Shown here: positions 1,733 through 43,038 of the stretch, piece after piece
Layout of the letters: every line of letters begins with the position of its first letter
How positions within the stretch are numbered: position 1 is the first letter of the stretch
IMG/VR virus record: IMGVR_UViG_3300036760_000421
Coordinates: 1-44,578 of that record
Direction: 5' to 3' (one strand)
DNA length: 44,578 bases
DNA from: a virus
Made by a program: the position numbers and the translations under genes
Notes under the pieces: model-generated
Seen by the model: only the letters and a program-made list of their open reading frames with translations
Databases searched by the model: none
Told to the model about the DNA's origin: nothing

Positions 1733-4700
1733 TTATTTGGGCATCAATCCTTTAAGCCACTCTTCAAACCGTCTCTTCTCTTCCAGTTTCTCCCATTCTG
1801 TCTTCTCGGCTTCCTTTTTACCTCGGTCTGTGGCTGCCTTAGTAACCTTCTTTGTTAAGAGCAACCAACTATCAAGTTCTGGATGCTGGACTCTAAAATC
1901 TAATCGGTTCTGCCTACTCATCAAAGGACTTATGTATGTCCTGTAAAGCCGATAGACTTCTCTTGAGGGGACTTTCGTAAAGTCTCGCGGCTCAGTAAAG
2001 ATGCCGAATTCAAACATTGCCTTATAGAAATCAGGATGCTCCATTAAGAACCAGTCGTCTTCGTAGTAAGACTCAGAGGGATGCTCTTTATACCAGTCAT
2101 CTGTAGATTTATCAGGTATCTTGTAATATTCAACATAGGTCTCAATTAAAGGAGTAGGGAAGTCTTTGCCATAAGCATCCCTTCTCAGTCTATCATCAGC
2201 ATACTCAGGATTGGATTTGAGGAAGGCTTGCCTCTGTTGTTTGCCCTCACTCGTCTCACCCTCAATCGCATCATATTGCTTATCCTGCTCTTGCCACTTA
2301 ACATCAATGCGCCAGATGGGTATTCTAGTCTCGTCAACTGGTTTTAAGGCATTATCACCCCAGATATTCTTGTCCATTCGCCAGGCATTATACTCAGGAT
2401 TATCAACACGATAAAGCATCACCTCAGCACTGGTGGAACCAATACCTTCTTTATCTTGTATCCGCATAAACTCAATATGGGCATTAACCAGCTTATCATC
2501 TACTGGATTCTCGTTTGTTCCTTTCTCAATAGCCTCAATCTTTCTTTCTGTATCCCTGTAGGTTAGGTCGTCCTCAATCATAGTAGCCTTCAGTTCAGCG
2601 ACCGCTCTATCTCTCTTTGTTAATCCATTCTCGTCTTTTATTTTATCATCCTTAAAATCAGGAGAATCCTCATCACTGAAAGATTCTATCTTGTCATAAA
2701 TTTCACGGAATTTAGGATTGGTTTTTAATTCCAAAGAGGCTATCGGAGTATCCACTTCGTCCAATGGATTGCCACTCTCATTCAGCCATTTCACAAGATT
2801 GGGATTCTTTGCTCGCAGAAGTTTGTCTTCCCAACTATTTGCTCCCCACTTATCTACTATCTCTATTCTTTCAAAGTAGGCTTTAGCAACATCTTGCGGC
2901 GGAAGATATGAAGTTACCGCACTATCGGGTATGTCGTAATCCTTAATCAATTTCTGGGCTATGTCATAGGCTTTCTGGGTCATTAACTTAGCCTTGCCCG
3001 CTAAAGCCTGCTTAGCGTTTTCCTCTGGATGAGACTTCAGCCATTCCTCTCTGGAATTTTGAGAAAGTTCGGGGTGTGTCTCCAAAAACTCCGCTTGCTT
3101 GGTTTTATCCGTGATTGCCCAATATTCACTTAGTAAGGCGAATTGTCTCTGTGATATATTTCCTAAGTAGGCTTGGTTATTTCTTTCATCAGCATCAAAG
3201 GCTTTCAATGCCTTCTCATCACCAGAGGCAATTATTTTTTGTCTTTCCTGCCATATCTTATAATTATCAACATAGGTTTTCCCCTTGTCAGGGTCAGCGT
3301 TCATAGAGATTAGTTTTACATTCGGGATGATGTTTGATTCCTCAAGACTACGGGCAGTTTCAACAATAAGTCTTACCTTTGGCGGATAGCCTTTCGCCTC
3401 AGTCAGGGTCGCCGGGTCAACGCCCTTAAATTGCGATGCTGTATCCGAGTAGAAATCTGCCCAATCATATACAGGTTTAGTCATCCCATAATAGAGATTG
3501 TCTGAGTATTTTGGTAGTCCTAATTTGGGAATGTTCTCCTTCCAGTCACCTGTATAGGTTTGGACACCCAACCCAAAGAAACTCAGGATACCAGCGGGTA
3601 TTGCACTGCTGGGTTTTTCTGCAAACGCCTCATAGGCATCCATCAAAGCCATGGGACTTATTCTATCTGCCCACTGCTGTAAGTTCTTGACATCTACCTC
3701 TTCGCCACTGTAAGTCTTTCCCGTTACATATTCAAGGAGTAGTCCAACCATGGGCGCTTCCTTACTCTTGAGGAAATTCTCTCCAACATTTAAGATATTT
3801 AATGGATACTCAGCACCCGTTGTAGTGGATTTACCCATTGCTGTCTTACCTGTAATCGGAGCCGTCACCAAGTCAAAGACTCTAGAGAAAAAGACAAAAA
3901 ACTGCTGTGCTCCACCCCAAGGGTCAATGCGTAGATTGCCGATGCGGGCTTTCCCGAAGTCGGCACTATTCCTATCCGTCTCTAAGTCCCACCAACCCAG
4001 TTGATTTCCTAATACGAGTGCCCCGCCAACTGTACCAACGAGTATTGTTGCATCTCTCCATGCCTGTTTTCTGACATAGGAATTAGACGAAAACAACTGT
4101 CTCCAACCAATAGCCCTACCCCATGCAAATCTGGGAGCATAGAGGATATTACCCAGTATTGGGGCTGCCTTCTGTAGTGGACCCAATGATGCTCTACCCG
4201 ACCAATCTGCCAACCTAGTGGCCTCGGCATCCATAATCTTCATAATATCAAAAGCCTTGCCTCGCTCTAATTTTAATTCTCCTGAGGCGTATTTCTCTCC
4301 TTCTCTCAGGGCACCTTTATAAGTATTTTCAAAAATACGCCATAAATCAGAATTGCAACCAGTAACAAAGCCGCGGTTGGACAACTTTACCCAGGGTATC
4401 TTTGCGGTCAGTTTTGGTATAAGTCTGTCCGGGAAAAGATAACCAAATTCCTCAACGCCTTTATATTGTTTTGTACCCTTTGGCATATCAGGGGGACGCA
4501 GGAAGTCCCTGCCCAACTTTGACTGCAGAGCGTCATAAATTGCATACAGTGGGTCATGAGTAATACGCACCCAAGAAGCCTCGGCACTCTTCTGGCTGAA
4601 TGTTGCCTTGAAAGCATCTACCATTGATAATACAAATTCTGTAGGATGACTAGGTATAAACGGCGCTACTTGTCTCGGGTAGGACATATCAAAAGAGGAC

Positions 4701-7700
4701 TTATTTGCCTTAATAAAACCGCCAATGTCTACTGGCGACCATGCTATCTCTTTGAGTACTCTAATAACGGCATCCCTAGCCGGTGCTGGCCACAAAGGTA
4801 TTTGTTTAATAGCATCCTCAATGGGTGCTTCATACTTAGTAACTGGCGGAGTCGGATATGCCTTCTCCCTGGCCTCCGAAACAGCAATGTCATAGGCATC
4901 CTTTGTTATTTTACCTTCCGAAAAGTCTATCGCCAGTTTAAGTTTTGCTTGGGCATATTCTACTTCCGCAGGAGTTCTAAGGTCTGATGCTATAGGCATT
5001 TCAAAGTCAGGTTCAAGGAATGTTTTATAACCAGCCGGGGTATTCTCTAATTTTCTCAGGTATTCAGCTGTTTCCTGGTCTATGGGTATAGACTCTTTAC
5101 CAGCTACAATAACTTCCGTGAATAGGTCTTCTGCTACTTTCTCCAATGGTTTCTGCTCGGAAGCCATCTTGTCTATGGATTTCAGAACTTCTGGTTGGTC
5201 ACCAAAGACACGCTGTAATCTGGTATATGCAGAACCACCCCTTACCCCTGGCTCTCTCGGTATCGCCTTGCCAGTTAGGGCATTAGTGAGGGCAGTAACA
5301 GTAGAGGCCATCTCAAAGGGTTCATCCTTTAGAACTTGATAGACTTTATTGAAGAGCACATCCCTCATTCGGTCTGTGAGGTCTGAAACATAATCAGTTT
5401 TCACAACAGGCAATTTGCCGGATAGTGTTTCGCTAATAGCCTGTTTCATTGCATCTTCTGCTGAAATACCCTCTTGAACTATAAGTTCTTGCGCTCTGAC
5501 TTTCAGTAATTCCGCTCTGCCGCTTCTTGTTTCTGTTCTTAGTTCCTTTGTTAGTTCCCAAGCATTTAGAGTAGAGGAGTCCTCAATATATTTACCAAAT
5601 AATTCTAATGTGCGAGTGACCTGAACAGGCGTTAAGGCTTTTCCGCCAGTAGGTGTTATGGCGACCTTTTCGGAAATAGGTTCTGGCAATGCTGGTAATG
5701 GTGTTTTTGCTTCAGTTGTAGCGATTTCAGTTTGCAGTTCTTTAATTGTAGTTTGAGCTTTACCAACACCCTCAATGGCTACTTTGAGCGCATCCCCGCT
5801 CTCATAACCCATCTCCGTAGCTACATCATCAAGGGCATACTCCCAGCGGACAACTTCTCTTGTAGTCTTGTATGTTTTTTCAGGCACAAACTTGCCCGCC
5901 TTCGTTGTATGTGCTTTTTCGGTAATAACTTGTGTCTCTTTACCTAGAATAGAGGCACTTGGTTCTTTACCTGTAATGTTCTGATACTGTTCCTTGCTAA
6001 GATTCCCCACCTCGCCCTTATACCAACCTGTCTTTTTAATCAGGTTCACCAGTTTAGTGGCGGGTTCAGTAGAGAGCCATTCTTTTAAACCCTCAATCTT
6101 TGCCTGCGCCTCATAAGCCGCCCTCGCTCCCCCTGGAGTCTCTTCCGCAGCCCGCCAAGTCTCTTCAATCTTGGGTGTAACGGTAAGGTCTCGGACTGGT
6201 ATCCCCTCGCTCTTTGCCCACTCAATAAACTTATTGAAGTCAGCCATAGCTTTGGGAGGTAACTCTATACCACCCTTTTCTTCAGTAATAAACTCCCTGA
6301 CAGGTTTCAGCCAGTCTCTAGTTACGGGGTCTTGAATCCATCCCTCTGCCTTCTTTTGAGCATCGGAGATAAGGGCGGCATTTTCCTTACTAACATTTAT
6401 CATCTTACCAGCCGCACCGAAGATAGATAGTGGCAAACCTTGAACCATAGAACTGATTGCCGCATTACCTATTCCAGCAAAAATGTCTTGTTTCGTATCT
6501 ACGAGTTTCATAGCAGCGTTTTGTATTGCTTGTTGAGCTACCCCAAAGACAGTAAACAAGGCTTCTGTCTCTCCAAATTGCTTTAATCCCTGTTTTAGAA
6601 CACTTTTAGCAGCGAGGTTGGCTATCTCCTTTGTGGCGGTTCTCTTAAATAAAGTCATCGCTTCTGGTTTTAATCCATTCAGCACCTTACCGATAGGTAT
6701 AAACATCAGGGCATTGCTTACGATACCAACCGCTGTTCCAAGTTTGGCAGCTTGGTCTTCTGTCGCTCCATGCGCCAGCATAAGGTCTTTATCTTCTTCA
6801 ATTTGAGCGGGAGTAAGAGCAACAATACTAGCTATAAGAGGCAGGGGGTTTGCCGTGACTGCACTAAGCCCCATCCCAGCTAGTATCGCCAGTGTCCCTG
6901 GTGCAGCGGTCGCTAGTTGATTTGCCCAATAGCTCCAATCTCTGGCTACTTCGGGATGATTTTTAATCGTATCAATAATATTACCTTGCCATTCGGGACG
7001 AGTTTCTAGTTCAGGGTGTTTACTTAACCAATCTTGGTGTTGTTGCTCATTCTGGACGTAGGTTGCACGAAATGAATCCCGAAGTCCCTTATATTTTTCG
7101 TTGTCAGCGGCAGCCTCTTGGTCAGTATAAACTAATCCTGCTTTAAGTGCCTCTTTATCACTCATCCCTGTTACTTTTGATTGTCCTGGCCTTACTTCGG
7201 GAAACAATAGAGTGGGTAAGGTGCTAACGAAAAACTGTTTCGTTTGATAGGCTATATTAGTGGCCGCAACCCTAAATGTATCCCAAATATCTTTTGCCTT
7301 ACTTTCTTCTGTCCCAAAAACCTGAGTAATCTCTTCCTCGGTGATGTCGGGGAATAACTGGGTTAAAAGAGCCTCCGTATCTTCGGTGCGCCCTATTGTC
7401 CGGAGAGTTTGACTAAATTCCAGCAGGTGAGCCTGTGCCTCAGTTATCCATCCGTACTCTTGCGAGAAAACCCTTCCAACTATCTGCCCTTCTGGCGGCT
7501 CACTTAACCATCTTAAGAGTTCCCCAATATCCTTACCTGAATATCCTGTAGGAAAGACCTTGCCAAAGACATCTTCAAGCTCAAGGGGAATCTCAGGTGC
7601 TTCTAGTTGGGTTTGTAATTCGTCCCTAGTATACTTCTTCCCTTCAGGAGAGATATAAGTCTGGTCCTGCGTAATCTCCCACTTCTCAGGAGTGATAAAA

Positions 7701-12498: not shown

Positions 12499-12591
12499 GG
12501 CAAATAGACAAAGCACCTTAACAACTGAATAGCCAAAGTCCCGAAGCCAGACCACACCGTGAGCCTCCTAGGGCGCAGGTTGGCAAGGGAC
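12499..12591 (+). ncRNA. Early leader: boxA-like repeat and predicted pseudoknot
   Basis: Right after early promoter 1 lies a 22-bp element beginning GGCAAATAGACAAAGCAC (12499-12520) that recurs exactly at 13224-13245. Its end, GCACCTTAACAACTGAATA, resembles boxA/nut-type antitermination leaders. Downstream, GCCAA (12532-12536) pairs with TTGGC (12580-12584), and GTCCC (12538-12542) pairs with GGGAC (12587-12591). The order is a-b-a'-b', an H-type pseudoknot. Structure is inferred by eye. Confidence 0.45.
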
Positions 12592-13468: not shown

Positions 13469-13684
13469 ATGAAATGTGTGTGTTGCGGTAAAAAAACTTC
13501 TCTCAATAGCAACGAAGGGTATTGGAAACGGTGGGGCGGTAGACACCAATGGGTATGCCGAAAGTGTGAATATTCGGGTCAGTATGCCCAAAGGCAACCA
13601 GACGAAAGGCAAATGTGCCAGCGTCATAATTTACCTATGAGAGGAGCAGGAGGCTGTATTCAATGCGAAAAGGAAGGTTATTGA
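13469..13684 (+). CDS. Small Cys-rich zinc-finger protein
   Basis: This encodes 71 residues with CVCC at residues 3-6, CRKC near 34, a single Cys-x2-His around 50 and CIQC near the C-terminus: enough ligands for two zinc sites. Family not recognised. The start follows the previous stop closely (TAAGAAATG) with no strong ribosome site, suggesting coupling. Confidence 0.7.
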   Translation: MKCVCCGKKTSLNSNEGYWKRWGGRHQWVCRKCEYSGQYAQRQPDERQMCQRHNLPMRGAGGCIQCEKEGY

Positions 13685-14934: not shown

Positions 14935-15591
14935 ATGAAAGCGTTTCATTTTCTCAAAGACAATATGTGCGGAGGGTATGGGGATGAACCGCCCTGGAAG
15001 ATTGGGGAGGAACGAGATATTGGCGATGATAACCTTAGACTCTGTGAAAGAGGTTATCACTCTAGCCCTTCTTGGTATGACGCATTAAATTATGCGAGGG
15101 GTAATATGGCTTGCATTGTTGAGGTATCAGAGCCAATAGAGAAAGACAAGACAAAGTTTGTATCAAGAAAACGGAAGCTCATAGAAGCCCGAAATGCCGA
15201 GAAGATTTTAAGGGCTTGGGGATGTGATTGTGCAGAGAGGGCATTAAAGAAGGCGAAAGTAACGGATGAAAGAAGTTGGAACGCCATAAAGATTGCCCGC
15301 TTATTCAATGAGGGCAAAGCCACCAAAAAAGAATTAAATGTGGCTTGGGATGTGGCTAGGGATGCGGCTGGGGATGCGGCTGGGAATGCGACTAGGACTT
15401 GGGATGCGGCTAGGGATGCGGCTGGGGCTGCGGCTGGGAATGCGGCTAGAACTTGGGATGCGGCTAGGGATGCGGCTAGGGATGTGGCTTGGGATGCGGC
15501 TAGGGCTGGGGCTGCGGCTTGGGATGCCGAAGTTAAATGGCAAAAGCGAAGGCTAAATTACTATATGAAGAAATTATTTGATAGAAAATGA
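14935..15591 (+). CDS. Phage protein with Ala/Trp/Asp repeat tail (DUF7666-like N-terminus)
   Basis: The N-terminal 130 residues (KAFHFLKDN, LCERGYHSSPSWYDALNYA, ACIVEVSEP, SRKRKLIEA, CDCAERAL) match by recall a widespread phage family of unknown function related to DUF7666. From about residue 137 to 200 the chain becomes a low-complexity repeat of AWDAARDAAG-type units, probably a continuous alanine-rich helix, ending in a basic tail. The corresponding DNA is a GGGATGCGGCT-type tandem repeat. Its stop overlaps the next start as ATGA. Function unknown; homologues with different repeat lengths would be expected. Confidence 0.75.
   Translation: MKAFHFLKDNMCGGYGDEPPWKIGEERDIGDDNLRLCERGYHSSPSWYDALNYARGNMACIVEVSEPIEKDKTKFVSRKRKLIEARNAEKILRAWGCDCAERALKKAKVTDERSWNAIKIARLFNEGKATKKELNVAWDVARDAAGDAAGNATRTWDAARDAAGAAAGNAARTWDAARDAARDVAWDAARAGAAAWDAEVKWQKRRLNYYMKKLFDRK
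15343..15530 (+). repeat. GGGATGCGGCT-type tandem repeat inside a coding region
   Basis: Near-perfect short units (GGGATGCGGCTA, GGGATGCGGCTG, with GGGCTGCGGCT and ACTTGGGATGCGGCT variants) are repeated about fifteen times in steps that keep the reading frame. They encode the Asp-Ala-Ala-Arg/Gly repeats. Such arrays can change copy number by slippage or recombination. Confidence 0.85.
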
Positions 15592-17299: not shown

Positions 17300-18137
17300 T
17301 ATAAATTTGTTGCTCTCCAAATTAAAAGGTGTTAAGAAAATAAGCACAGGATATATGGCGATGTGTCCTGCCCACAATGATACCCACAGAAGCCTATCCA
17401 TTAAAGCCGATGTTGATAACAAGGCTGTTCTTTACTGCCACGCTGGTTGCAAATTTGAGGATATCTTAAAGGCACTTGGCTTAACCAGCGCACCAACTTT
17501 CCACTTTACACCCGTGATAGATGAGACCTATGACTATACAGATGAAAATGGGAACTTACTTTATCAAGTTGTCCGCTATCACCCTAAAAACTTCAAGCAC
17601 CGCAGACCTAACGGAAAAGGATGGATATGGAACTTGAACGGAATAGAGCCAGTCCTCTATCGCCTCCCTGAAATTATTGAGGCAGTTGGCAAAGAATTGA
17701 TTTGGATTGTTGAGGGAGAGAAAGATGTTGAGACTCTGAAATCACAAAATATAATAGCAACTACAACTTCTGGCGGGGCTTCGGCGAGGTGGCTACCGCA
17801 ATACAATGAAATTCTACACGGAGCAGATATAGCCATAATACCTGATAATGACGAGGCTGGACAAGCGAGGACCCTAAGGATAGCTAAGAACCTCTATGGC
17901 TGGGCGAAGGGAATTAAAATAGTCTATCTACCGAAGGACATAAAAGACATCACGGATTGGTTTGAGCAGGGTCATACAAAAGAAGAACTCCTTGAGCAAT
18001 ATAAAGTAACTCGTCTTTTTGACATTAAAGGAACGCCCACATTAGAGGACTACCTTGACATTAAGGGTGCTATCGTGTATTATGGTGAAAAGATAAAGCG
18101 TCTATCGGGAAAGCGTAGGTCTTATGAATATAAATAG
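17286..18137 (+). CDS. DNA primase (CHC2 zinc finger + TOPRIM)
   Basis: This makes RNA primers for DNA replication. Zinc-binding residues are CPAHNDTHRS near residue 22 and CHAGC near residue 48, the CHC2 finger of bacterial-type primases. The TOPRIM domain follows: IWIVEGEKDV (about residue 138, catalytic Glu), then ADIAIIPDNDEAG (about residue 185, the DxD pair) and KDITDWFEQG. At 283 residues it lacks a helicase domain, which is probably supplied by the ATPase at 18321. I chose the ATG at 17286 because GGAGGAG precedes it, rather than the upstream in-frame ATG at 17196. Its 3' end abuts the putative origin. Confidence 0.92.
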   Translation: MPIDDINLLLSKLKGVKKISTGYMAMCPAHNDTHRSLSIKADVDNKAVLYCHAGCKFEDILKALGLTSAPTFHFTPVIDETYDYTDENGNLLYQVVRYHPKNFKHRRPNGKGWIWNLNGIEPVLYRLPEIIEAVGKELIWIVEGEKDVETLKSQNIIATTTSGGASARWLPQYNEILHGADIAIIPDNDEAGQARTLRIAKNLYGWAKGIKIVYLPKDIKDITDWFEQGHTKEELLEQYKVTRLFDIKGTPTLEDYLDIKGAIVYYGEKIKRLSGKRRSYEYK

Positions 18138-18307
18138 TATAATAATTAACTTTATCTATATTAGAGGGTGTTGCGCCAGCTATAATCCCGCAACATCCGC
18201 AACATTTTCGCCGATTTTAGCTACGAATTACCCCGTTTTCCCGCAACATTTCCGCAACATCCCGCAACATCCGCAACATCCCGCAACATCCGCAACATCC
18301 GCAACAC
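18124..18307. other. Putative replication origin: AT-rich stretch and nine iterons
   Basis: After a very AT-rich segment (18124-18165) come nine copies of CGCAACAT (the last ends in C). They start at 18189, 18198, 18242, 18253, 18263, 18272, 18282, 18291 and 18300, so seven are spaced 9-11 bp, about one helical turn. Iterons beside an AT-rich unwinding region, placed between primase and helicase-like genes, are typical of theta-type phage and plasmid origins. I see no good DnaA box. A 69-codon frame crosses it but encodes only repeat-derived sequence. Confidence 0.7.
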
Positions 18308-18320
18308 AAAAGGGAGCAAC

Positions 18321-19211
18321 TTGGCTAATCTAACGCAAGAAATAGTAGAAAATTGGATACAAAATGAAGCCACGGGGAGGTTTCATTATTCAAAAGTTTT
18401 GGATGGGCAGATTGACCCCAAGTTATATCATCATCTCAGGGAAATAATGAGACGATGTAAAAAGAAGGGGCTGATTTCTTCCGATGGAGCAGATGGATGG
18501 TGGCGACCCGTTGATATAAAGCTTGAGGAGATATGCTGGTGGGATGGCAATAGTGAGATAGGAGAGAATATTGTGTTACCGCTTGGATTAAATAAGTATT
18601 GCTTTATTCCTGTTCCTTCCTTGATAGTCGTGGCGGGCAAATACAATGTCGGCAAGACCGCCTTCTGTATAAACCTAGTGAATTGTAATCTTGAAATGTG
18701 GGCTAATAGACTGGACTTCTATGTCAGCGAGGGCGCAGATATGATGAAGAAAAAGTTTGAAGCCCTCAATGCTTATATCCCCAAACCCCCACCCTTCAAG
18801 ATGTTCCGCCGAACCCAAAACTTCGCCGATATTATCAATCCTAACAATCTTAGCGTTATTGATTATCTCCGAGTTGTTATGGATAAGCCCTATGCGATAG
18901 GGGATGCCCTATTTGCAATATTCAATAAGCTGGAAAAAGGTATAGCTGTTGTTGCTATGCAGAAACCGCCAGGCGAAAGAAAGCTAGCCTTCGGTGGGGC
19001 ATCAACTGCGTTTGAGCCATCCCTGTATATCGCAATGGATAAAAATGTTTTGAGCTTTGAAAAGATTAAAGTCGCCAAGCCAACAACTATTGACTTAGAT
19101 TTTCTCAAGATACAATTCAGGCTAAAGAATGGGGCTAACTTTTATGATATTCACGAAGTCGTTGAAGGAATGAATTTGGGTGAAGGGTTTCCCTTTGGAG
19201 AGGAGGAGTAA
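18321..19211 (+). CDS. RecA/DnaB-type replication ATPase
   Basis: Residues 1-65 look like a winged-helix DNA-binding domain (VENWIQNEATGRFHYSKVLD, REIMRRCKKKGLI). The ATPase core begins at about residue 92 with IVVAGKYNVGKTAFCINLV, a Walker A P-loop. Walker B is probably LSVIDYLRV near residue 178, followed by IAVVAMQKPPG and a SerThr-rich sensor loop. It is 296 residues, shorter than full DnaB. The start is TTG at 18321 behind GGGAG; no ATG fits. Next to primase and the iterons, it may bind the origin and act as helicase or loader. Confidence 0.75.
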   Translation: MANLTQEIVENWIQNEATGRFHYSKVLDGQIDPKLYHHLREIMRRCKKKGLISSDGADGWWRPVDIKLEEICWWDGNSEIGENIVLPLGLNKYCFIPVPSLIVVAGKYNVGKTAFCINLVNCNLEMWANRLDFYVSEGADMMKKKFEALNAYIPKPPPFKMFRRTQNFADIINPNNLSVIDYLRVVMDKPYAIGDALFAIFNKLEKGIAVVAMQKPPGERKLAFGGASTAFEPSLYIAMDKNVLSFEKIKVAKPTTIDLDFLKIQFRLKNGANFYDIHEVVEGMNLGEGFPFGEEE

Positions 19212-25337: not shown

Positions 25338-25496
25338 TTATTTCACAGAGGCTATGGTAAGCCCGATACCTAGCAAGGCTATACCGCCGAAAAACATTCC
25401 CCAACCAGAGCCAGCGAGACCAAGAACAAACATCGTCCACCCTGCAGCACCAAATAGGCAGGCGATTACAAGTTTAGCTATGTCGGTAATCCTCAT
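25338..25496 (-). CDS. Two-helix membrane protein, holin-like (52 aa)
   Basis: Two hydrophobic helices (about residues 7-25 and 29-48; LVIACLFGAAGWTMFVLGL and GMFFGGIALLGIGLTIA) with a tight turn fit a small holin or antiholin. I start at 25496, where AGGAGGTG precedes the ATG, rather than 25544. Upstream on this strand is TTGTTATAAT, a possible -10 without a good -35. Last gene of the leftward transcript, next to a second candidate holin. Confidence 0.55.
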   Translation of the reverse strand: MRITDIAKLVIACLFGAAGWTMFVLGLAGSGWGMFFGGIALLGIGLTIASVK

Positions 25497-25994: not shown

Positions 25995-26711
25995 CTAACA
26001 ACTTCCGCTATATGCAACCATAAGAATAAGCACCGAAGCCAACCAAGCGGCAATGAGTGCTACTATAACCCATACCAACGCATTCCTCATTTCCCCCTTA
26101 TTGTCTTTGGGCGTTTGGCTTAATGCGATTTCTTCGGTGGCTATCGGTATTTCGGGCTTTGTTTCTACTAGTTCAAATAATTCGCCTGACAACTCTGCAT
26201 ATTTATAAGCCGCTGGGACAGGGGCAAATTCATCGGGGATAATTGAGCAGCCAGCTAAATCATAGGCTTCGTCCACTGCCTCGGTGCAAACAAACTTGTC
26301 ATCTCTGCACCAACTTAGTTCCCAGGGATAGATTGGTCTTATCCTGCCCTTAGTTAAGAAATTCTTGAAAAGCAACCAGAAGCCCTGGAGCATAATCTTT
26401 AGGATTAATAGGTAATCATATTTGCTTCGCCCATAGCGGGTTAAGGCAATGGGGGCAAGGCGGCAGGCATCTTCGGGGCAATCTGCCCGATAAAACTTTA
26501 TATCTGCGTCCTTGTAAAATGAAAGTCTACCCACTGCTATTCCCTTCCCGATGCTTTCAAGGATTATGTAGTCATCCTCATCTGGAACTTGCCACACTAT
26601 AAGTCCATAATGGAAGCGGTCAGTCTTCGGAGCCATTAGTTTACTGGCAAGCCATCCCATAAACCCTGTATTCCGAGTAGCGAAAATATCCCCAGGTTTA
26701 AGCCCTATCAT
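25995..26711 (-). CDS. Permuted NlpC/P60 (YiiX-like) papain-fold enzyme with membrane anchor
   Basis: LKPGDIFATRN near the N-terminus, HYGLIV (about residue 34, catalytic His), YIILESIGKG, and FVCTEAVDEAY (about residue 140, catalytic Cys) match the permuted NlpC/P60 fold, in which His precedes Cys. Residues about 210-235 form a C-terminal membrane helix. Family members cut peptidoglycan peptides or lipids/amides. As I find no other endolysin candidate in the window, it may be the lysis enzyme, but the anchor is unusual for that. It overlaps the upstream coiled-coil gene by four bases. Confidence 0.7.
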   Translation of the reverse strand: MIGLKPGDIFATRNTGFMGWLASKLMAPKTDRFHYGLIVWQVPDEDDYIILESIGKGIAVGRLSFYKDADIKFYRADCPEDACRLAPIALTRYGRSKYDYLLILKIMLQGFWLLFKNFLTKGRIRPIYPWELSWCRDDKFVCTEAVDEAYDLAGCSIIPDEFAPVPAAYKYAELSGELFELVETKPEIPIATEEIALSQTPKDNKGEMRNALVWVIVALIAAWLASVLILMVAYSGSC

Positions 26712-26905: not shown

Positions 26906-29023
26906 TTAATAATTATGTAGTGTCTGCCAGCTTCCATTGATATAGGCATAAATATTGTGGTCGCTGGAATTGAGATACATTCTTCCTTCTGCTGCTATTG
27001 GGTGGCTAGTTCTTTGGGGTAGGTCAATATAACAAGCACTACCGAAGGTTAACGGAGACATACATATTATGGGATTCCCCAAAAGTTCAAGGGCAGCAGC
27101 GCTAGCAGCAACACGGAAATGACCTGCATCCACCGCATAAACAACCCCCTTAAATACCCCCCCATAGTTAAAGATTAAATATTGCCCTTCAATCTTTAGC
27201 CCAGCAGCATCCAAAGAAACTGCCCCCGCCCCTGCATATAGCTTCCCATCTGAACCCATTTTGGTTTGGTAATTAGTGCCAGCTCTTGCGTCAGTCGCAT
27301 TAGCAAATGTAGCAAAAGCCATATCTGTCCCATAGAGCCTAATACCTTTGGTAGCATCTATAATGACCCCAGATTCGCTATACCATTCTCCCGATGCAAT
27401 ACAGGCACTTAGTAGAATATGTCCAGCTGAGATGTCGGTCTTATAAACTAATCCATAGGTCGTCCCTATAACTACTTGGTCTAAAAGAACCAATCCGCTT
27501 GCAGAAAGGGAGGTAGTTTTAACTCTTGAATAGGTCGTTCCGTTTGCTATTGCATCTAGGGTGGTCGCCGTCCAATCTCCAGCGACATACGCCCCCGTTG
27601 CCCTGGCTGTAGTGCACCTCTTTACAGTAGAGGTATCCATCCATATATCGCCGACATCATAGGGAGTTGTTGGTGTTGCGGTAAAAGTTCGGGATTTGCT
27701 ATCAGGGTCGTAACCCACCGCATACTCGCAGGCATCGGATAGAAGAATCTTCCCTGCCGTGATTTGATTTGAGAGAACCCTTTTATAGTTCGTCCCCTCT
27801 TGAATATCGTCTAACGAAATAAACTCATCAACATATAGCTTATCTACTCTTAATCGTTCTAAGTCTAATTCTTTCAAGCCCGAAGAGGTTGTTAAACTCT
27901 GATACAGGTCTTTGAGATATGTATTTATCGGGGGGTCGCCGAGACTGAAGTTTAACAAATATTCTCTCTTAGAATGACTGTAGTTAAAGGAGAGCGAACC
28001 GAGATTTCCTGTTCTAAAATCGGCTTCTCTCTCATCTGTAACTTTTATGTAATCAAATAACTCAGCACCGCAATTTACAGGGACGGAAGCCGAGCCCATT
28101 TTTGCATTTAACTGAGCACGAATTATAACAGCCGAAGCGATTGAGGTTGCCTCAGCATTACTCGCAAGTCTCATATCGTAGTAATCTCGTTTGGGAAGTA
28201 GAGCGTAAGAGGTAGTATCCTGAGCATATCCTGTATACTGTGGGTCGTCATCTGTCCTAGATTGGACGACAACATAATTAGGAATTACAAGAGACTTTCG
28301 GTAAGCCTTAGAGAAAAACGGATGCCCTGAATCTAATGAATATTCGTAATTGTAGGTCGTTCCTGAAGTCGTTGGAACAAAAATGTGTATCTTGCCGTCG
28401 TCCTCAAATCTATGGACGCACCCCGTTCTTTCAATCAGTCTCTTGAAAGCCGTCCACCTATTTCCACCAACAGGGATTCTGAATGAATCCTTTGGACAAT
28501 ACGAGTTTATCAGGCTGTCTTCGCTGTCAAACACTATTTCATAGGCTTGACAATGTGAAAAGCACGCTAGGGTCGCCGTGGTTATCTCGGTTAAAAGGGT
28601 CTTAACTGTCTTGGTATCTGATTCTAGGGGGAAGTAATTAGCACTAGATTCATCCAGTGCCATCATATCGGGGATGCCGAGCATGGTTAAAAGACAGGTC
28701 AGTTTCCCTGGGCTGGAATTGAGTTGCTGCCAGGTTACTGTCATAGGAGAAGTATCGGCGTATTCCTTGCCTGATTTAGTCAGGAGTCCATGAGAGATGA
28801 CTGCCGTGTAGCCTTTAAGGTCTTTGCCCGTGAAATAGCCATCTGAATTATCAAGTTCAACCTCTTTGGCATAAACATGGTCGGGGTCAAAATAGTGGTT
28901 TAATGATTTAATACGGTCAGCCTCTAAAGTATATGAAGTTGCGCCAGAGGTAAGAACAATCTTCGGAGCTGGCTCTGAGCTCTTCTTTTGTGCTGCTAAT
29001 AAAGCATCAGATAAAGTTCTCAT
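26906..29023 (-). CDS. Tail hub / receptor-binding tail protein (705 aa)
   Basis: Residues 1-370 (ALLAAQKKSSEPAPKIVLTS, LDNSDGYFTGKDLKGYTAVI, GNRWTAFKRLIERTGCVHRFEDDGKIHIF, NYVVVQSR) resemble by recall the hub-like tail proteins of siphophages and podophages. Residues about 400-700 hold several fibre-type units around GT(N/T)Y...I-x-AG-x-ILLS, ending in YLNSSDHNIYAYINGSWQTL, a motif frequent at the tips of phage fibres. It likely anchors the tail and contacts the cell surface. It overlaps the 165-aa gene by four bases. Confidence 0.75.
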   Translation of the reverse strand: MRTLSDALLAAQKKSSEPAPKIVLTSGATSYTLEADRIKSLNHYFDPDHVYAKEVELDNSDGYFTGKDLKGYTAVISHGLLTKSGKEYADTSPMTVTWQQLNSSPGKLTCLLTMLGIPDMMALDESSANYFPLESDTKTVKTLLTEITTATLACFSHCQAYEIVFDSEDSLINSYCPKDSFRIPVGGNRWTAFKRLIERTGCVHRFEDDGKIHIFVPTTSGTTYNYEYSLDSGHPFFSKAYRKSLVIPNYVVVQSRTDDDPQYTGYAQDTTSYALLPKRDYYDMRLASNAEATSIASAVIIRAQLNAKMGSASVPVNCGAELFDYIKVTDEREADFRTGNLGSLSFNYSHSKREYLLNFSLGDPPINTYLKDLYQSLTTSSGLKELDLERLRVDKLYVDEFISLDDIQEGTNYKRVLSNQITAGKILLSDACEYAVGYDPDSKSRTFTATPTTPYDVGDIWMDTSTVKRCTTARATGAYVAGDWTATTLDAIANGTTYSRVKTTSLSASGLVLLDQVVIGTTYGLVYKTDISAGHILLSACIASGEWYSESGVIIDATKGIRLYGTDMAFATFANATDARAGTNYQTKMGSDGKLYAGAGAVSLDAAGLKIEGQYLIFNYGGVFKGVVYAVDAGHFRVAASAAALELLGNPIICMSPLTFGSACYIDLPQRTSHPIAAEGRMYLNSSDHNIYAYINGSWQTLHNY

Positions 29024-37191: not shown

Positions 37192-40100
37192 TTATTTAAG
37201 CCCCATCTCTTTTAACTTCTCTTCCATTTCTCGTTGTATCCGTTCAAGTTCCTTCTGTGCTTGCAGGTCTTTTCCCCCCGCTTTTTCGGTTACTTTGTCT
37301 CCATCTGTTGGAGGTTTGCCCCCAGTCTCTAGCTTGGTTCCTGTAGTTATATGAAGCCACATATCTAATTCGGGATGTTCAGCCTCAAAGTCTCTGCGTG
37401 CTTTCCCCTTGGGTAGATTCCCCCAGGTCTGATAAAGGGCATAGACTTCTTTGGTCGGGACTTTGGTAAAGTCTCTTGGCTTCCACGCATTATCGCCCAT
37501 TATCTCAGGGTCAATCATTGCTTTATAAAGGTCGGGATGTTCCATCAGGAACCAGTCATCTTCATAGCCAGCCCTGCTGACTTTATAGTATTCAACATAG
37601 GGTTCTATAAGGTTATCGGGAAGGTTATAACTATAAGCGTCAATCCGTCTCATATCGTCAACCCATTCGGGATTATCAGCCTTGAGTTTGGCAACAGCCC
37701 TATCTCTGGCCGTCAGACCTTGGGCATCTTTGACTTTATCATCCAAATAAGCGGGGGATTCCTTGTCACTATAAGATTCCAACAGGTCAAATAGCGGTCG
37801 GTTCTTAACCTTTAATTCTAGGGAAGCTATCGGGGTATCTACCTCGCCTAGTGGATTCCCACTCTCATTCAACCATTTCACAAGTTTGGGATTCTTTGCC
37901 CGCAGGAGTTTATCCTCCCAGCTATTTGCCCCCCACTTATCTACTATCTCTATTCTTTCAAAGTATGCTTCGGCAATCTCCTTTGGGGGGAGATAAGAAG
38001 CCACCGCACTATCGGGTATGTCGTAGTCCTTAATCAATTTCTGGGTTATGTCATAGGCTTTTACGGTCATTATCTTAGCTTTACCCACCAAGGCCTGTTT
38101 AGCGTTTTCCTCTGGATGAGATTTCAGCCATTCTTCCCTGGGATTCTGAGAAAGTTCGGGATGGGTCTCCAAAAACTCCGCCTGTTTGGTTTTATCCGTG
38201 ATTGACCAGTATTCATTAAGCAAAGCAAACTGCCTTTGTGAGAAATTGCCTAAGTAGGCTTGGTTGTTTCTCTCATCGGCATCAAAGGTCTTCAGTGCCT
38301 TCTCGTCACCGGAGGCTACTATCTTCTGTCTTTCCTGCCATATCTTATAATTATCAACATAGGTTTTTCCCTTGTCTGGGTCGGCATTCATAGAGATTAG
38401 TTTCACATTCGGGATAATACCAGACTCATCAAGGCTTCTAGCAGTTTCTACAATAAGTCTCACCTTTGGAGGGAAGCCCTTCGCCTCGGTTAAAGTGGCT
38501 GGGTCAACGCCCTTGAACTGTGATGCCGTATCCGAGTAGAAATCCGCCCAATCATATACAGGTTCGGTCATACCATACCAGGCATTGTCGGGGTATTTAG
38601 GTAATCCTATTTTTGAGATGTTCTGGTTCCAATCACCCGTATAGGTCTGGACACCAAGACCAAAGAAGCTCAGGATACCGGCGGGTATTACACTACTGGG
38701 TTTTTCCTTAAATGCCTCGTAGGCATCCATCAGGGCCATGGGGCTTATTCTATCTGCCCACTGCTTTAAGTTCTGGACATCTACCTTTTCGCCACTGTAG
38801 GTCTTTCCTGTCACATATTCAAGGAGAAGCCCAACCATAGGTGCTTCCTTACTCTTGAGGAAGTTCTCGGCAACATTTAAGAAATTTAGTGGATATTCTG
38901 CTCCAGTTGTGGTGGACTTACCCATCGCTGTTTTGCCTGTAATGGGAGCCGTTACCAGGTCAAAGACCCTAGAGAAAAAGACAAAGAATTGCTGTGCCCC
39001 ACCCCAGGGGTCAATGCGTAGATTGCCGATGCGGGCTTTCCCGAAGTCGGCGCTATTCCTATCCGTCTCTAAGTCCCACCAACCCAGTTGATTTCCTAAT
39101 ACGAGTGCCCCGCCAACTGTACCAACGAATATTGTTGCATCTCTCCATGCCTGTTTTCTGACATAGGAATTAGGCGAAAGCAACTGTCTCGGACCAATAG
39201 CCCTACCCCATGCAAATCTGGGAGCATAGAGGAGATTACCCAGTATTGGGGCTGCCTTCTGTAGTGGACCCAATGATGCTCTACCCGACCAATCTGCCAA
39301 CCTAGTGGCCTCGGCATCCATAATCTCCATAATATCAAAAGTCTTGCCTTGCTTTAATTTTAATTCTCCTGATGCGTATCTCTCTCCTTCTCTCAGGGCA
39401 CCTTTATAAGTATTTTCAAAAATACGCCATAAATCAGAATTGCAACCAGTAACAAAGCCACGGTTGGACAACTTTACCCAGGGTATCTTTGCGGTCAGTT
39501 TTGGTATAAGTCTGTCCGGGAAAAGATAACCAAATTCCTCAACGCCTTTATATTGTTTTGTACCCTTTGGCATATCAGGGGGACGCAGGAAGTCCCTGCC
39601 CAACTTTGACTGCAGAGCGTCATAAATTGCATACAGTGGGTCATGAGTAATACGCACCCAAGAAGCCTCGGCACTCTTCTGGCTGAATGTTGCCTTGAAA
39701 GCATCTACCATTGATAATACAAATTCTGTAGGATGACTAGGTATAAACGGCGCTACTTGTCTCGGGTAGGACATATCAAAAGAGGACTTATTTGCCTTAA
39801 TAAAACCGCCAATGTCTACTGGCGACCATGCTATCTCTTTGAGTACTCTAATAACGGCATCCCTAGCCGGTGCTGGCCACAAAGGTATTTGTTTAATAGC
39901 ATCCTCAATGGGTGCTTCATACTTAGTAACTGGCGGAGTCGGATATGCCTTCTCCCTGGCCTCCGAAACAGCAATGTCATAGGCATCCTTTGTTATTTTA
40001 CCTTCCGAAAAGTCTATCGCCAGTTTAAGTTTTGCTTGGGCATATTCTACTTCCGCAGGAGTTCTAAGGTCTGATGCTATAGGCATTTCAAAGTCAGGTT

Positions 40101-43038
40101 CAAGGAATGTTTTATAACCAGCCGGGGTATTCTCTAATTTTCTCAGGTATTCAGCTGTTTCCTGGTCTATGGGTATAGACTCTTTACCAGCTACAATAAC
40201 TTCCGTGAATAGGTCTTCTGCTACTTTCTCCAATGGTTTCTGCTCGGAAGCCATCTTGTCTATGGATTTCAGAACTTCTGGTTGGTCACCAAAGACACGC
40301 TGTAATCTGGTATATGCAGAACCACCCCTTACCCCTGGCTCTCTCGGTATCGCCTTGCCAGTTAGGGCATTAGTGAGGGCAGTAACAGTAGAGGCCATCT
40401 CAAAGGGTTCATCCTTTAGAACTTGATAGACTTTATTGAAGAGCACATCCCTCATTCGGTCTGTGAGGTCTGAAACATAATCAGTTTTCACAACAGGCAA
40501 TTTGCCGGATAGTGTTTCGCTAATAGCCTGTTTCATTGCATCTTCTGCTGAAATACCCTCTTGAACTATAAGTTCTTGCGCTCTGACTTTCAGTAATTCC
40601 GCTCTGCCGCTTCTTGTTTCTGTTCTTAGTTCCTTTGTTAGTTCCCAAGCATTTAGAGTAGAGGAGTCCTCAATATATTTACCAAATAATTCTAATGTGC
40701 GAGTGACCTGAACAGGCGTTAAGGCTTTTCCGCCAGTAGGTGTTATGGCGACCTTTTCGGAAATAGGTTCTGGCAATGCTGGTAATGGTGTTTTTGCTTC
40801 AGTTGTAGCGATTTCAGTTTGCAGTTCTTTAATTGTAGTTTGAGCTTTACCAACACCCTCAATGGCTACTTTGAGCGCATCCCCGCTCTCATAACCCATC
40901 TCCGTAGCTACATCATCAAGGGCATACTCCCAGCGGACAACTTCTCTTGTAGTCTTGTATGTTTTTTCAGGCACAAACTTGCCCGCCTTCGTTGTATGTG
41001 CTTTTTCGGTAATAACTTGTGTCTCTTTACCTAGAATAGAGGCACTTGGTTCTTTACCTGTAATGTTCTGATACTGTTCCTTGCTAAGATTCCCCACCTC
41101 GCCCTTATACCAACCTGTCTTTTTAATCAGGTTCACCAGTTTAGTGGCGGGTTCAGTAGAGAGCCATTCTTTTAAACCCTCAATCTTTGCCTGCGCCTCA
41201 TAAGCCTCTCTAACTCCCCCCGAAGCCTCTTCCACGGCCCGTAATGTCTCTTCAATCTTGGGTGTAACGGTAAGGTCTCGGACTGGTATTCCTTCCTTTC
41301 TTGCCCACTCAATAAACTTATTGAAGTCAGCCATAGCTTTGGGAGGTAACTCTATACCACCCCTTTCTTCAGTAATAAACTCCCTGATAGGTTTCAGCCA
41401 GTCTTTAGTTTGGGGGTCTTGAATCCATCCCTCTGCCTTCTTTTGAGCATCGGGGACAAGAGCAGCATTTTCCTTACTAACATTTATCATCTTACCGGCC
41501 GCACCGAAGACAGCCAGTGGCAAACCCTGAACCATAGAACTGATTGCCGCATTACCTATTCCAGCAAAAAGGTCTTGCTTCGTATCTAAGAGTTTTATAG
41601 CAGCGTTTTGTATTGCTTGTTGAGCTACCCCAAAGACAGTAAACAAGGCTTCTGTCTCGCCAAATTGCTTTAATCCCTGCTTTAGGACACTTTTAGCAGT
41701 GAGGTTGGCTATCTCCTCCGTAGCGGTTCTCTTAAATAAAGTCATCGCTTCTGGTTTTAATCCATTCAGCACCTTACCGACAGGTATAAACAACAGGGCA
41801 TTGCTTGCGATACCAACCGCTGTTCCAAGTTTGGCAGCTTGGTCTTCTGTTGCTCCATGCGCCAGCATAAGGTCTTTATCTTCTTCAATTTGAGCGGGGG
41901 CAAGAGCAGTAATACTAGCTATAAGAGGCAGGGGATTCTCCGTGACTGCACTAAGCACCATCCCAGCTAGTATCGCCAGTGTCCCTGGTGCTCCGGCCGC
42001 TAGTTGATTTGCCCAATAGCCCCAATCCCTAGCTACTTCAGGATGATTTTTAATCGTATCAATAATATTACCTTGCCATTCGGGACGAGTTTCTAGTTCA
42101 GGGTGTTTACTTAACCAATCTTGGTGTTGTTGCTCATTTTTAGTATAGGTCTGGCGATATTGGTCTCGGCTCGTCTTACTCTTCTCGTTATATGCCGCTA
42201 CCTGTTCTGGTGGGCAAGGTATATTCCGCCCAGTCCTTTGGTCCCATACTGGGTCTCCAGCCTTAATATCTCTGAACAGTAAATTTGGTAGAGTGCCAAC
42301 AAAAAACTGTTTCGTTTGATAGGCTATATTAGTGAAAGCAACCCTCGCTGTATCCCAAATATCTTTTGCCTTGCTTTCTTCTGGCACAGTTGTTGGGGCT
42401 GGTGCAAAGAACTGGGTAATCTCCTCTGGTTTCATTCCCAATCCCGAAAGCAAACTCTCGGTATCTTCCGTTCGCCCTATAGCCCAGATGGCTTGAGCAA
42501 ATTCCCGCTGGCGAGCCTCCGCTACCCAGTCTCTCTCTCCATACCATCCCCCAGTCCCCCTCAACCAAGTTAAGGTCTCTTCAATATCTTTGCCCGAATA
42601 GCCTGTGGGGAAGACCCCACCAAAGGCACTCTCAAGTTCAATATAGGGGGCATTTAATTGAGTTGTTATCTCCTCCGCGGTAAACTTCTGCCCCTTCGGA
42701 GATAGCCAGGTCTGGTCTTCTAACACTTCCCATTTCCCAGGTTCAATAGGGGCAAGGAAGTCTTCGGGTGTGATAAAACTCATGACAGGCTCGGCTCCAT
42801 TAGCACCCGGAGTCATCTTTAGCAACCAACCTTCATCTAACTTAAAGGGTTCACCAGTCTCGGTTGTGAGCCCTAGCCCTACGACTTGTTCAGGAGTAAA
42901 GAACTCAGGAACCTGGGGAAGGGCAAGCCTAGCCTCTTTCTGCTTTGTCATCTCTTCGGTAAGCAGGGGCATTAACTTGCGTGTTTCCTCTAAAGATGTC
43001 CCGTAAGATTCCAACAGTTCAGAAATGCCGTTGCTCAT
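37192..43038 (-). CDS. Giant virion protein 2 (1948 aa)
   Basis: This is a homologue of giant protein 1 with the same order: hydrophobic Ala/Gly region near residues 330-420, shared core, LPD38-like WSGRASLG...GLGVQTY region, charged HPE-rich tail ending in a coiled coil (DLQAQKELERIQREMEEKL). Its core (39461-41205) is identical to giant 1 in nucleotide sequence as far as I can see, while the first 300 residues are strongly diverged and it lacks about 110 residues near the C-terminal third. In the 35-kb circular interpretation only its C-terminal half belongs with the tail genes. Probable internal/ejection protein. Confidence 0.75.
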   Translation of the reverse strand: MSNGISELLESYGTSLEETRKLMPLLTEEMTKQKEARLALPQVPEFFTPEQVVGLGLTTETGEPFKLDEGWLLKMTPGANGAEPVMSFITPEDFLAPIEPGKWEVLEDQTWLSPKGQKFTAEEITTQLNAPYIELESAFGGVFPTGYSGKDIEETLTWLRGTGGWYGERDWVAEARQREFAQAIWAIGRTEDTESLLSGLGMKPEEITQFFAPAPTTVPEESKAKDIWDTARVAFTNIAYQTKQFFVGTLPNLLFRDIKAGDPVWDQRTGRNIPCPPEQVAAYNEKSKTSRDQYRQTYTKNEQQHQDWLSKHPELETRPEWQGNIIDTIKNHPEVARDWGYWANQLAAGAPGTLAILAGMVLSAVTENPLPLIASITALAPAQIEEDKDLMLAHGATEDQAAKLGTAVGIASNALLFIPVGKVLNGLKPEAMTLFKRTATEEIANLTAKSVLKQGLKQFGETEALFTVFGVAQQAIQNAAIKLLDTKQDLFAGIGNAAISSMVQGLPLAVFGAAGKMINVSKENAALVPDAQKKAEGWIQDPQTKDWLKPIREFITEERGGIELPPKAMADFNKFIEWARKEGIPVRDLTVTPKIEETLRAVEEASGGVREAYEAQAKIEGLKEWLSTEPATKLVNLIKKTGWYKGEVGNLSKEQYQNITGKEPSASILGKETQVITEKAHTTKAGKFVPEKTYKTTREVVRWEYALDDVATEMGYESGDALKVAIEGVGKAQTTIKELQTEIATTEAKTPLPALPEPISEKVAITPTGGKALTPVQVTRTLELFGKYIEDSSTLNAWELTKELRTETRSGRAELLKVRAQELIVQEGISAEDAMKQAISETLSGKLPVVKTDYVSDLTDRMRDVLFNKVYQVLKDEPFEMASTVTALTNALTGKAIPREPGVRGGSAYTRLQRVFGDQPEVLKSIDKMASEQKPLEKVAEDLFTEVIVAGKESIPIDQETAEYLRKLENTPAGYKTFLEPDFEMPIASDLRTPAEVEYAQAKLKLAIDFSEGKITKDAYDIAVSEAREKAYPTPPVTKYEAPIEDAIKQIPLWPAPARDAVIRVLKEIAWSPVDIGGFIKANKSSFDMSYPRQVAPFIPSHPTEFVLSMVDAFKATFSQKSAEASWVRITHDPLYAIYDALQSKLGRDFLRPPDMPKGTKQYKGVEEFGYLFPDRLIPKLTAKIPWVKLSNRGFVTGCNSDLWRIFENTYKGALREGERYASGELKLKQGKTFDIMEIMDAEATRLADWSGRASLGPLQKAAPILGNLLYAPRFAWGRAIGPRQLLSPNSYVRKQAWRDATIFVGTVGGALVLGNQLGWWDLETDRNSADFGKARIGNLRIDPWGGAQQFFVFFSRVFDLVTAPITGKTAMGKSTTTGAEYPLNFLNVAENFLKSKEAPMVGLLLEYVTGKTYSGEKVDVQNLKQWADRISPMALMDAYEAFKEKPSSVIPAGILSFFGLGVQTYTGDWNQNISKIGLPKYPDNAWYGMTEPVYDWADFYSDTASQFKGVDPATLTEAKGFPPKVRLIVETARSLDESGIIPNVKLISMNADPDKGKTYVDNYKIWQERQKIVASGDEKALKTFDADERNNQAYLGNFSQRQFALLNEYWSITDKTKQAEFLETHPELSQNPREEWLKSHPEENAKQALVGKAKIMTVKAYDITQKLIKDYDIPDSAVASYLPPKEIAEAYFERIEIVDKWGANSWEDKLLRAKNPKLVKWLNESGNPLGEVDTPIASLELKVKNRPLFDLLESYSDKESPAYLDDKVKDAQGLTARDRAVAKLKADNPEWVDDMRRIDAYSYNLPDNLIEPYVEYYKVSRAGYEDDWFLMEHPDLYKAMIDPEIMGDNAWKPRDFTKVPTKEVYALYQTWGNLPKGKARRDFEAEHPELDMWLHITTGTKLETGGKPPTDGDKVTEKAGGKDLQAQKELERIQREMEEKLKEMGLK
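39461..41205. repeat. 1.74-kb long direct repeat, copy 2
   Basis: Same orientation and content as 4374-6118, offset 35,087 bp. On both sides the similarity declines gradually, then the flanks diverge, consistent with homologous recombination inside a conserved gene or with assembly joining at a shared segment. Confidence 0.95.

Follow-up and report, generated by a model that had tools for sequence, protein, structure and literature searches.

RESULTS

Repeats and an AT-rich stretch between a primase gene and a winged-helix ATPase gene

The window, by which we mean the whole stretch of DNA analyzed here, is a 44,578-base virus record. An earlier note on this DNA had placed a repeat array between a primase gene and a gene for a RecA/DnaB-like ATPase, and both neighbors were confirmed as a CHC2/Toprim primase and an ATPase with a winged helix (wHTH) (Table 1). 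The primase gave a PHROG primase match with an E value of 5.4e-35, and it is 36.9% identical to a Salinibacter phage primase; its Toprim and CHC2 Pfam matches were weak and fell under the curated cut-offs.

Between the two genes, we found eight exact copies of CGCAACAT, every one within positions 18189-18298, against an expectation of 0.71 from dinucleotide shuffles; none of 100 shuffles had eight copies. A ninth direct copy, at 18300-18307, reads CGCAACAC. The heptamer CGCAACA starts at 18189, 18198, 18242, 18253, 18263, 18272, 18282, 18291, and 18300, in steps of 9, 44, 11, 10, 9, 10, 9, and 9 bp, and these nine direct copies together with one inverted copy span 18168-18307. Beyond the array region, CGCAACA occurs in the window only at 13481 and 27674, and in simulated Markov genomes (n = 20), no 8-mer exceeded 6 copies per 120 bp. 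The array of nine copies at 9-11 bp steps described earlier is thus real, although one of its copies is the variant CGCAACAC rather than CGCAACAT, and one step is a 44-bp gap. The inverted copy was missing from that description, and position 18124, which had been taken as the array edge, is actually the ATG of a 69-aa frame crossing the array. With its short, helically phased direct repeats, the window fulfills one criterion for an iteron origin. Two lone minus-strand copies of CCGCAACAC lie at 13480-13488 and 27673-27681, distant from the array.

A very AT-rich stretch had also been reported beside the array. We located it at 18116-18165, and with 84% AT, it is the AT-richest 50-mer among all 44,578 bases. 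It fulfills the iteron-origin criterion of an adjacent AT-rich element, its role in unwinding being inferred, and the order in the window is AT stretch, iterons, wHTH gene. No RNA element was matched in Rfam at E ≤ 1 for 17900-18500, the folding of 18138-18330 was ordinary (z = -0.73), and a search for intrinsic terminators found none.

TABLE 1 Features at the repeat array and its flanking genes
Feature	Position in window	Strand	Basis
DnaG-type primase gene (CHC2 zinc ribbon and Toprim), 313 aa	17196-18137	+	PHROG, Pfam
AT-rich stretch, candidate DNA unwinding element; overlaps 3′ end of primase gene	18116-18165		84% AT
Inverted iteron CGCAACAC	18168-18175	-	Sequence
First iteron cluster, two copies of CGCAACAT	18189-18205	+	Repeat count
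Second iteron cluster, six copies of CGCAACAT and a final CGCAACAC, steps of 9-11 bp	18242-18307	+	Repeat count
AAGGGAG, likely ribosome-binding site of ATPase gene	18310-18316	+	Sequence only, inference
Putative initiator gene (winged helix and RecA/DnaB-fold ATPase), 296 aa, TTG start	18321-19211	+	Model, fold, homology

The ATPase had no Pfam match above cut-off (it scored 12.4 bits against DnaB_C, for which the cut-off is 27), and the Pfam search found no Prim-Pol domain (PF09250) in it. Larger proteins from the Methanosarcina virus MetMV and from vir555 (Methanomicrobiales), both beginning with a Prim-Pol domain, match it in their C-terminal half. An AlphaFold model based on 76 aligned sequences had a mean pLDDT of 88.8; a model from the single sequence reached 30.6 and was discarded. 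Residues 6-63 were predicted to form three helices and two strands resembling a winged helix, followed by a RecA-type core, which gives a layout of winged helix (about 1-65, with recognition helix 33-48 containing Arg40) and RecA/DnaB fold (76-287). The Walker A residues A105, G106, G111, and K112 are invariant across the 76 sequences, and the protein fulfills the DnaB/SF4 criterion of a RecA fold with Walker A. Residues 76-287, the part covered by the fold hits, which excludes the winged helix, matched the C-terminal domain of Helicobacter pylori DnaB (4a1f; VIA Z 17.1, 3.1 Å over 197 residues), KaiC (Z 17.3), RadA (16.9), the G40P ATPase domain (16.7), and T7 gp4 (16.3). Since these scores are nearly tied, the kind of ATPase is not settled.

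Relatives carry different repeats in the same place

Single-protein searches with the ATPase among viral and genome contigs found no relative, and alignment-based scans (MetMV, vir555, and the window) were needed. They yielded 135 sequences, 129 with both wHTH and ATPase, and clustering of these 129 loci at 90% identity left 78 representatives. The scan patterns, Walker A and one other motif, both belong to the ATPase part and lie outside the repeat region. Two of 50,697 phage records matched, and no plasmid relative of the window ATPase was found at E 1e-5. With a relative's ATPase as the query, weak matches to Streptomyces plasmids appeared. A separate set of 78 loci found with the primase contained no ATPase relatives and was scanned for repeats in a first pass only. 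In Salinibacter phage M1EM-1 (L007:7753-7946), six copies of ATGTATGG lie downstream of a primase-ATPase gene.

The best short-repeat cluster of the approximately 10-kb locus lay at the wHTH start in 33 of the 78 representatives, where about 4.3 were expected, and elsewhere in the remaining 45. When loci were binned by 250 bp around the wHTH start, the fraction scoring ≥5.5 was 0.35-0.37 in both bins between -250 and +250, 0.18 between -500 and -250, and 0.00-0.08 beyond -500 and +250. The repeat score and the near zone were picked after a first look at the data. The window is not among the 33 because an unrelated array at 15338-15527 scores higher. That array has about 15 copies of a 12-bp unit within the open reading frame 14935-15591, the first 93 residues of which match DUF7666.

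Repeat placement is thus conserved among the relatives, but the motif is not. The repeats are intergenic next to a stand-alone ATPase gene and intragenic when the ATPase forms a fusion with a Prim-Pol primase. In L086, the closest relative at 67% identity, CGTTACAC repeats fill the same position in the gap ahead of an ATPase gene that likewise starts with TTG, and repeats also lie just upstream of stand-alone ATPase genes in L150 and L166 (TGTGACAA-like), L158 (TTATACAA), and L153 (CATATCAT). The gene upstream in L086, L166, and L150 encodes a CHC2 zinc-ribbon protein; these proteins are small, lack a Toprim match, and are encoded directly upstream of the array (L086:4363-4908, L166:4241-4834, and L150:4212-4886). 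A Prim-Pol domain (PF09250) is present in L087, L111, L101, L125, L159, MetMV, and vir555 and was not found in the L115 and L138 proteins.

Base composition followed the repeats in the fusions. At -300, just before the linker repeats, the AT excess was +0.117 ± 0.029 in 24 iteron-positive fusions and -0.009 ± 0.024 in 16 iteron-negative ones. Across all representatives, the near zone held a top-1% AT 50-mer of the locus in 32 of 78. A full-text literature search (titles and abstract starts) found no description of iterons for this wHTH-ATPase initiator family, and the words replication, primase, helicase, and iteron are nowhere present in the MetMV paper.

Repeats within coding sequence are constrained as DNA and change together

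In the fusions, the repeats occupy a linker about 200-250 bases before the wHTH as well as codons of the wHTH itself. The lambda-like criterion of iterons within initiator coding sequence is therefore met by the fused relatives and not by the window, where they are intergenic. Among the 47 genes with coding sequence upstream, repetition exceeded that of all 60 synonymous shuffles in 26; the observed score was equaled or exceeded by at most 3 of the 60 shuffles in 28 genes and by more than 3 in the other 19. Copies fall in two or three reading frames (3, 4, and 4 in MetMV). The constraint inside the fusion genes acts on the DNA.

Three homologous sites in the wHTH codons (HMM columns 11, 18, and 28) carry one 8-mer three times over in many genomes, and the 8-mer varies by genome: GCGTTACA in L087, TGTCTACA in L089, ACCTTACA in L111, CGACCACA in L116, GCGTAACA in L118, TGTCGTCA in L120, and TGACCTCA in L138. 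All three sites were readable in 60 of the 78 representatives. Agreement among the sites was 2.73 of 8 between genomes and 4.63 of 8 within genomes, the latter a value that none of 10,000 permutations attained (largest, 3.18). Of 248 slid controls, only shifts of one codon, which overlap the sites, approached it. Concordance of at least 6.5 of 8 was seen in 24 of the 60 genomes, with 14 motifs among them. In the 310-base linker of these 24, a genome's own motif occurred 2.29 times on average and the motifs of other genomes 0.25 times; the own motif was more frequent than the others' in 16 of the 24, and elsewhere it occurred 0.094 times per 310 bases. These 24 genomes, on which part of this analysis of the sites and the comparison of protein columns below rest, were picked for concordance, leaving out 54 of the 78. 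The window and L086 have no sites in wHTH codons, all of their repeats being in the intergenic gap.

A recognition-helix residue covaries with an iteron base

We compared protein columns with motif distance in the 24 concordant genomes. Among columns that do not themselves embed the repeats, column 38, in the recognition helix, tracked the motif best, with column 35 next; 249 columns were tested in all, and none of 300 permutations scored as high as column 38. Columns 228, 138, and 43 also ranked high, but only on the strength of a single genome. At the third base of the 8-mer, G paired with Arg at column 38 in 6 of 7 genomes, T with Ser in 8 of 9, A with Asn in 4 of 7, and C with His in the single case. 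This code fails in 5 of the 24 training genomes and in 3 of 13 further ones; the 10 that agree include the window and L086 (both G and Arg), the residue in the window protein being Arg40. The register threshold for these 13 held-out genomes was fixed after the data had been seen and removed 10 of 23 rows (L005, L107, L112, L115, L125, L126, L152, L153, L159, and L211). Judged by eye, L125 and L211 agree, L112, L153, and L159 disagree, and the others could not be assigned. For L166 and L167, among the 13, the minus strand was used.

A tree built from the ATPase part alone requires 18 changes of the base, about the number required by shuffled labels (17.6), indicating that specificity switches fast. 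The figure of 18 is a best-tree count, with 11 of 34 inner branches open; starred branches force at least 7 changes for T, 6 for G, and 4 for A. In independent pairs, G and Arg/Lys went the same way in 5.6 of 6 and never in opposite ways (median p = 0.031), T and Ser went the same way in 5.3 of 7 (median p = 0.0625), and for A and Asn there were too few pairs. Among 432 column-letter associations with G, that of Arg at column 38 ranked first (phi = 0.82). Comparison with the relatives suggests that the repeats are recognized by the ATPase protein and that the two have changed in concert on many occasions. As evidence for a cognate initiator, this covariation is indirect, there being no binding data.

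Skew and the rest of the genome

The earlier note had proposed GC skew on a closed 35-kb unit as a check on the origin. We ran it on the 35,087-bp unit, and it neither supports nor refutes an origin at the array: the detrended skew has its minimum at 12,570 and its maximum at 25,361, not at 18.2 kb. Both GC and AT skew change sign sharply at these two positions, which are where gene orientation switches, and the GC skew is thus uninformative on the origin.

The unit results from closing the record on a 4.33-kb stretch that is present twice (2724-7051 and 37811-42138, 94% identity), in two reading frames of about 2,000 aa. Head-type genes lie near both copies, and the genome may be circular or permuted, with the two ends of the contig representing different versions of a single head region. 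The protein encoded at 25995-26711 shows weak similarity (E = 1.6e-6) to phrog_1128, a phage family resembling enoyl-CoA hydratases, and might be a prohead protease with a crotonase fold.

DISCUSSION

The row of repeats is very probably the site where copying of the viral DNA starts, a statement made without replication data. A possibility already raised in the earlier note, that the array is an iteron origin recognized by the neighboring helicase-like protein through its winged helix, gained support from the relatives' repeats, their concerted change, and the covariation, and we regard it as likely. The array, its conserved placement, the constraint at the DNA level in coding relatives, the concerted change, the residue-base covariation, and the RecA fold were all computed; origin function, binding, melting, helicase activity, and the order of events are inferred from sequence.

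In the mechanism that we propose, 18116-18307 would be a theta-type replication origin of the virus. The CGCAACA iterons, which are in phase with the helix, would be bound by the winged helix of the 18321-19211 protein, and Arg40 in its recognition helix would recognize the first G of the core GCAACA. With several copies of the protein on the same side of the DNA, the duplex might be wrapped or strained until the AT-rich DNA next to the iterons opens. The protein's own RecA/DnaB-fold part could then load there as a ring helicase or serve as the loader of one, and primers would come from the CHC2/Toprim primase encoded upstream. Many relatives would combine the initiator and the primase in a single Prim-Pol-wHTH-ATPase protein with the iterons inside its gene, partly as codons of the wHTH.

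Some of the evidence goes against an origin. The cumulative GC skew turns at positions that follow gene orientation rather than the array, and the array directly precedes a start codon, as an operator would. The 45 representatives with their best repeat cluster elsewhere, the 19 of 47 coding cases in which more than 3 shuffles did as well as the gene, and the exceptions to the base-residue code also count against it. An autoregulatory operator, through which the ATPase winged helix or another repressor controls its own gene with the AT stretch as promoter, is the alternative we take most seriously, although we consider it unlikely. The array ends 13 bp upstream of the TTG start, the AT-rich stretch includes TATAAATA and TATAAT-like strings, a good sigma-70-like site lies at 18055-18083, and an operator would produce the same protein-DNA covariation. 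In the fusions, however, the arrays are several hundred bases inside the gene, in linker and wHTH codons, where they cannot be its promoter operator, which speaks against a simple operator of this kind; as a matter of general knowledge, the length and helical phasing of the array also exceed those of usual operators. The two functions are not exclusive, and dual use is possible.

The same protein might instead bind the array as a partition, copy-number, incompatibility, or packaging site. Plasmid iterons are generally known to serve copy control as well, and PMC5043065 relates this to initiator and iteron concentration. The domain that presumably reads the array, however, shares a protein with a helicase-fold ATPase and, in the fusions, also with a primase, which fits initiation better, and an AT-rich stretch accompanies the arrays; we think a role as such a site improbable. 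Least credible of all is that the repeats merely arose from repetitive peptides or from slippage during replication and have no binding function. Tandem arrays can expand by slippage, and some far arrays, such as that in the open reading frame 14935-15591, look as if they had arisen in this way. The window array is noncoding, however, 26 of 47 relatives beat every synonymous shuffle, copies lie in several frames, and the three wHTH sites change together without being adjacent, in a placement that is conserved while the motif is not.

Extending the origin reading to the relatives, we lean, with less assurance than for the window itself, toward a mostly uncultured virus family whose initiators combine a wHTH with a RecA fold, whose iterons lie inside or before the initiator gene, and whose specificity has switched often through a change of all iterons and one residue. 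As parts of this same joint reading, the protein sequence would be partly dictated by the origin, the iterons often lying in codons of the very wHTH that reads them; related elements would occur in bacterial and archaeal genome assemblies; and the switching (G-Arg, T-Ser) would possibly be driven by origin-targeting nucleases or by competing co-infecting replicons. Phage ICP1 has an origin-directed nuclease that mimics the specificity of an initiator to cut the origins of satellites, and it may thereby act as selection for altered origins (PMC8263062). By analogy, a nuclease of that sort is a possible driver here. If our reading is true, it supplies an origin and an initiator for a virus group known almost only from metagenomes, a rule linking the two that can be read from sequence, and, from nature, an exceptionally clear example of a protein-DNA specificity that switched repeatedly, with all sites changing together. 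How multi-site origins change specificity would become directly testable.

The locus is best read as a known kind of origin, a lambda-like combination of iterons and AT-rich DNA at an initiator gene, here with an initiator whose specificity has switched repeatedly. Like O and ori-lambda, it has iterons and an adjoining AT-rich stretch in or beside the initiator gene. Unlike those of lambda, the window sites are about 8 bp long, one helical turn apart, and mostly direct; the initiator here also includes a RecA-fold ATPase, and the relatives' sites are in codons of the DNA-binding domain. Helix-phased direct repeats with an AT-rich element, a common arrangement in plasmids, also recall the origins of iteron plasmids. 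To our knowledge, the Rep proteins of plasmids P1, F, RK2, and RSF1010 are not joined to a RecA-fold ATPase. Gene O of lambda contains four iterons of 18 bp, to which an AT-rich sequence of 38 bp is joined (PMC3349717), and O works with P and the host DnaB (PMC3985674). P1, F, RK2, and RSF1010 have helix-phased direct repeats with an AT-rich element alongside (PMC5043065), and RSF1010 uses separate RepC, RepA, and RepB′ proteins (PMC4234260).

Other systems share the joining of activities. For the AEP replication proteins PrimQH and pRN1 ORF904, origin recognition by a winged helix has been proposed (PMC5862659), and like our fused relatives, they unite a primase, a P-loop helicase, and a winged helix in a single polypeptide; their winged helix is C-terminal, whereas here the wHTH precedes the RecA-fold ATPase. 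pRN1 has an SF3 helicase and a stem-loop origin without iterons (PMC4234260), whereas iterons are present here and the window primase is separate and DnaG-like. The SaPI Rep and SCCmec Cch2 initiator helicases have their own DNA-binding domain, which reads short iterons beside the gene (PMC7581432). In those elements, the iterons are downstream and the binding domain is C-terminal (PMC7581432), whereas here the iterons are upstream of or inside the gene and the binding domain is N-terminal to the ATPase.
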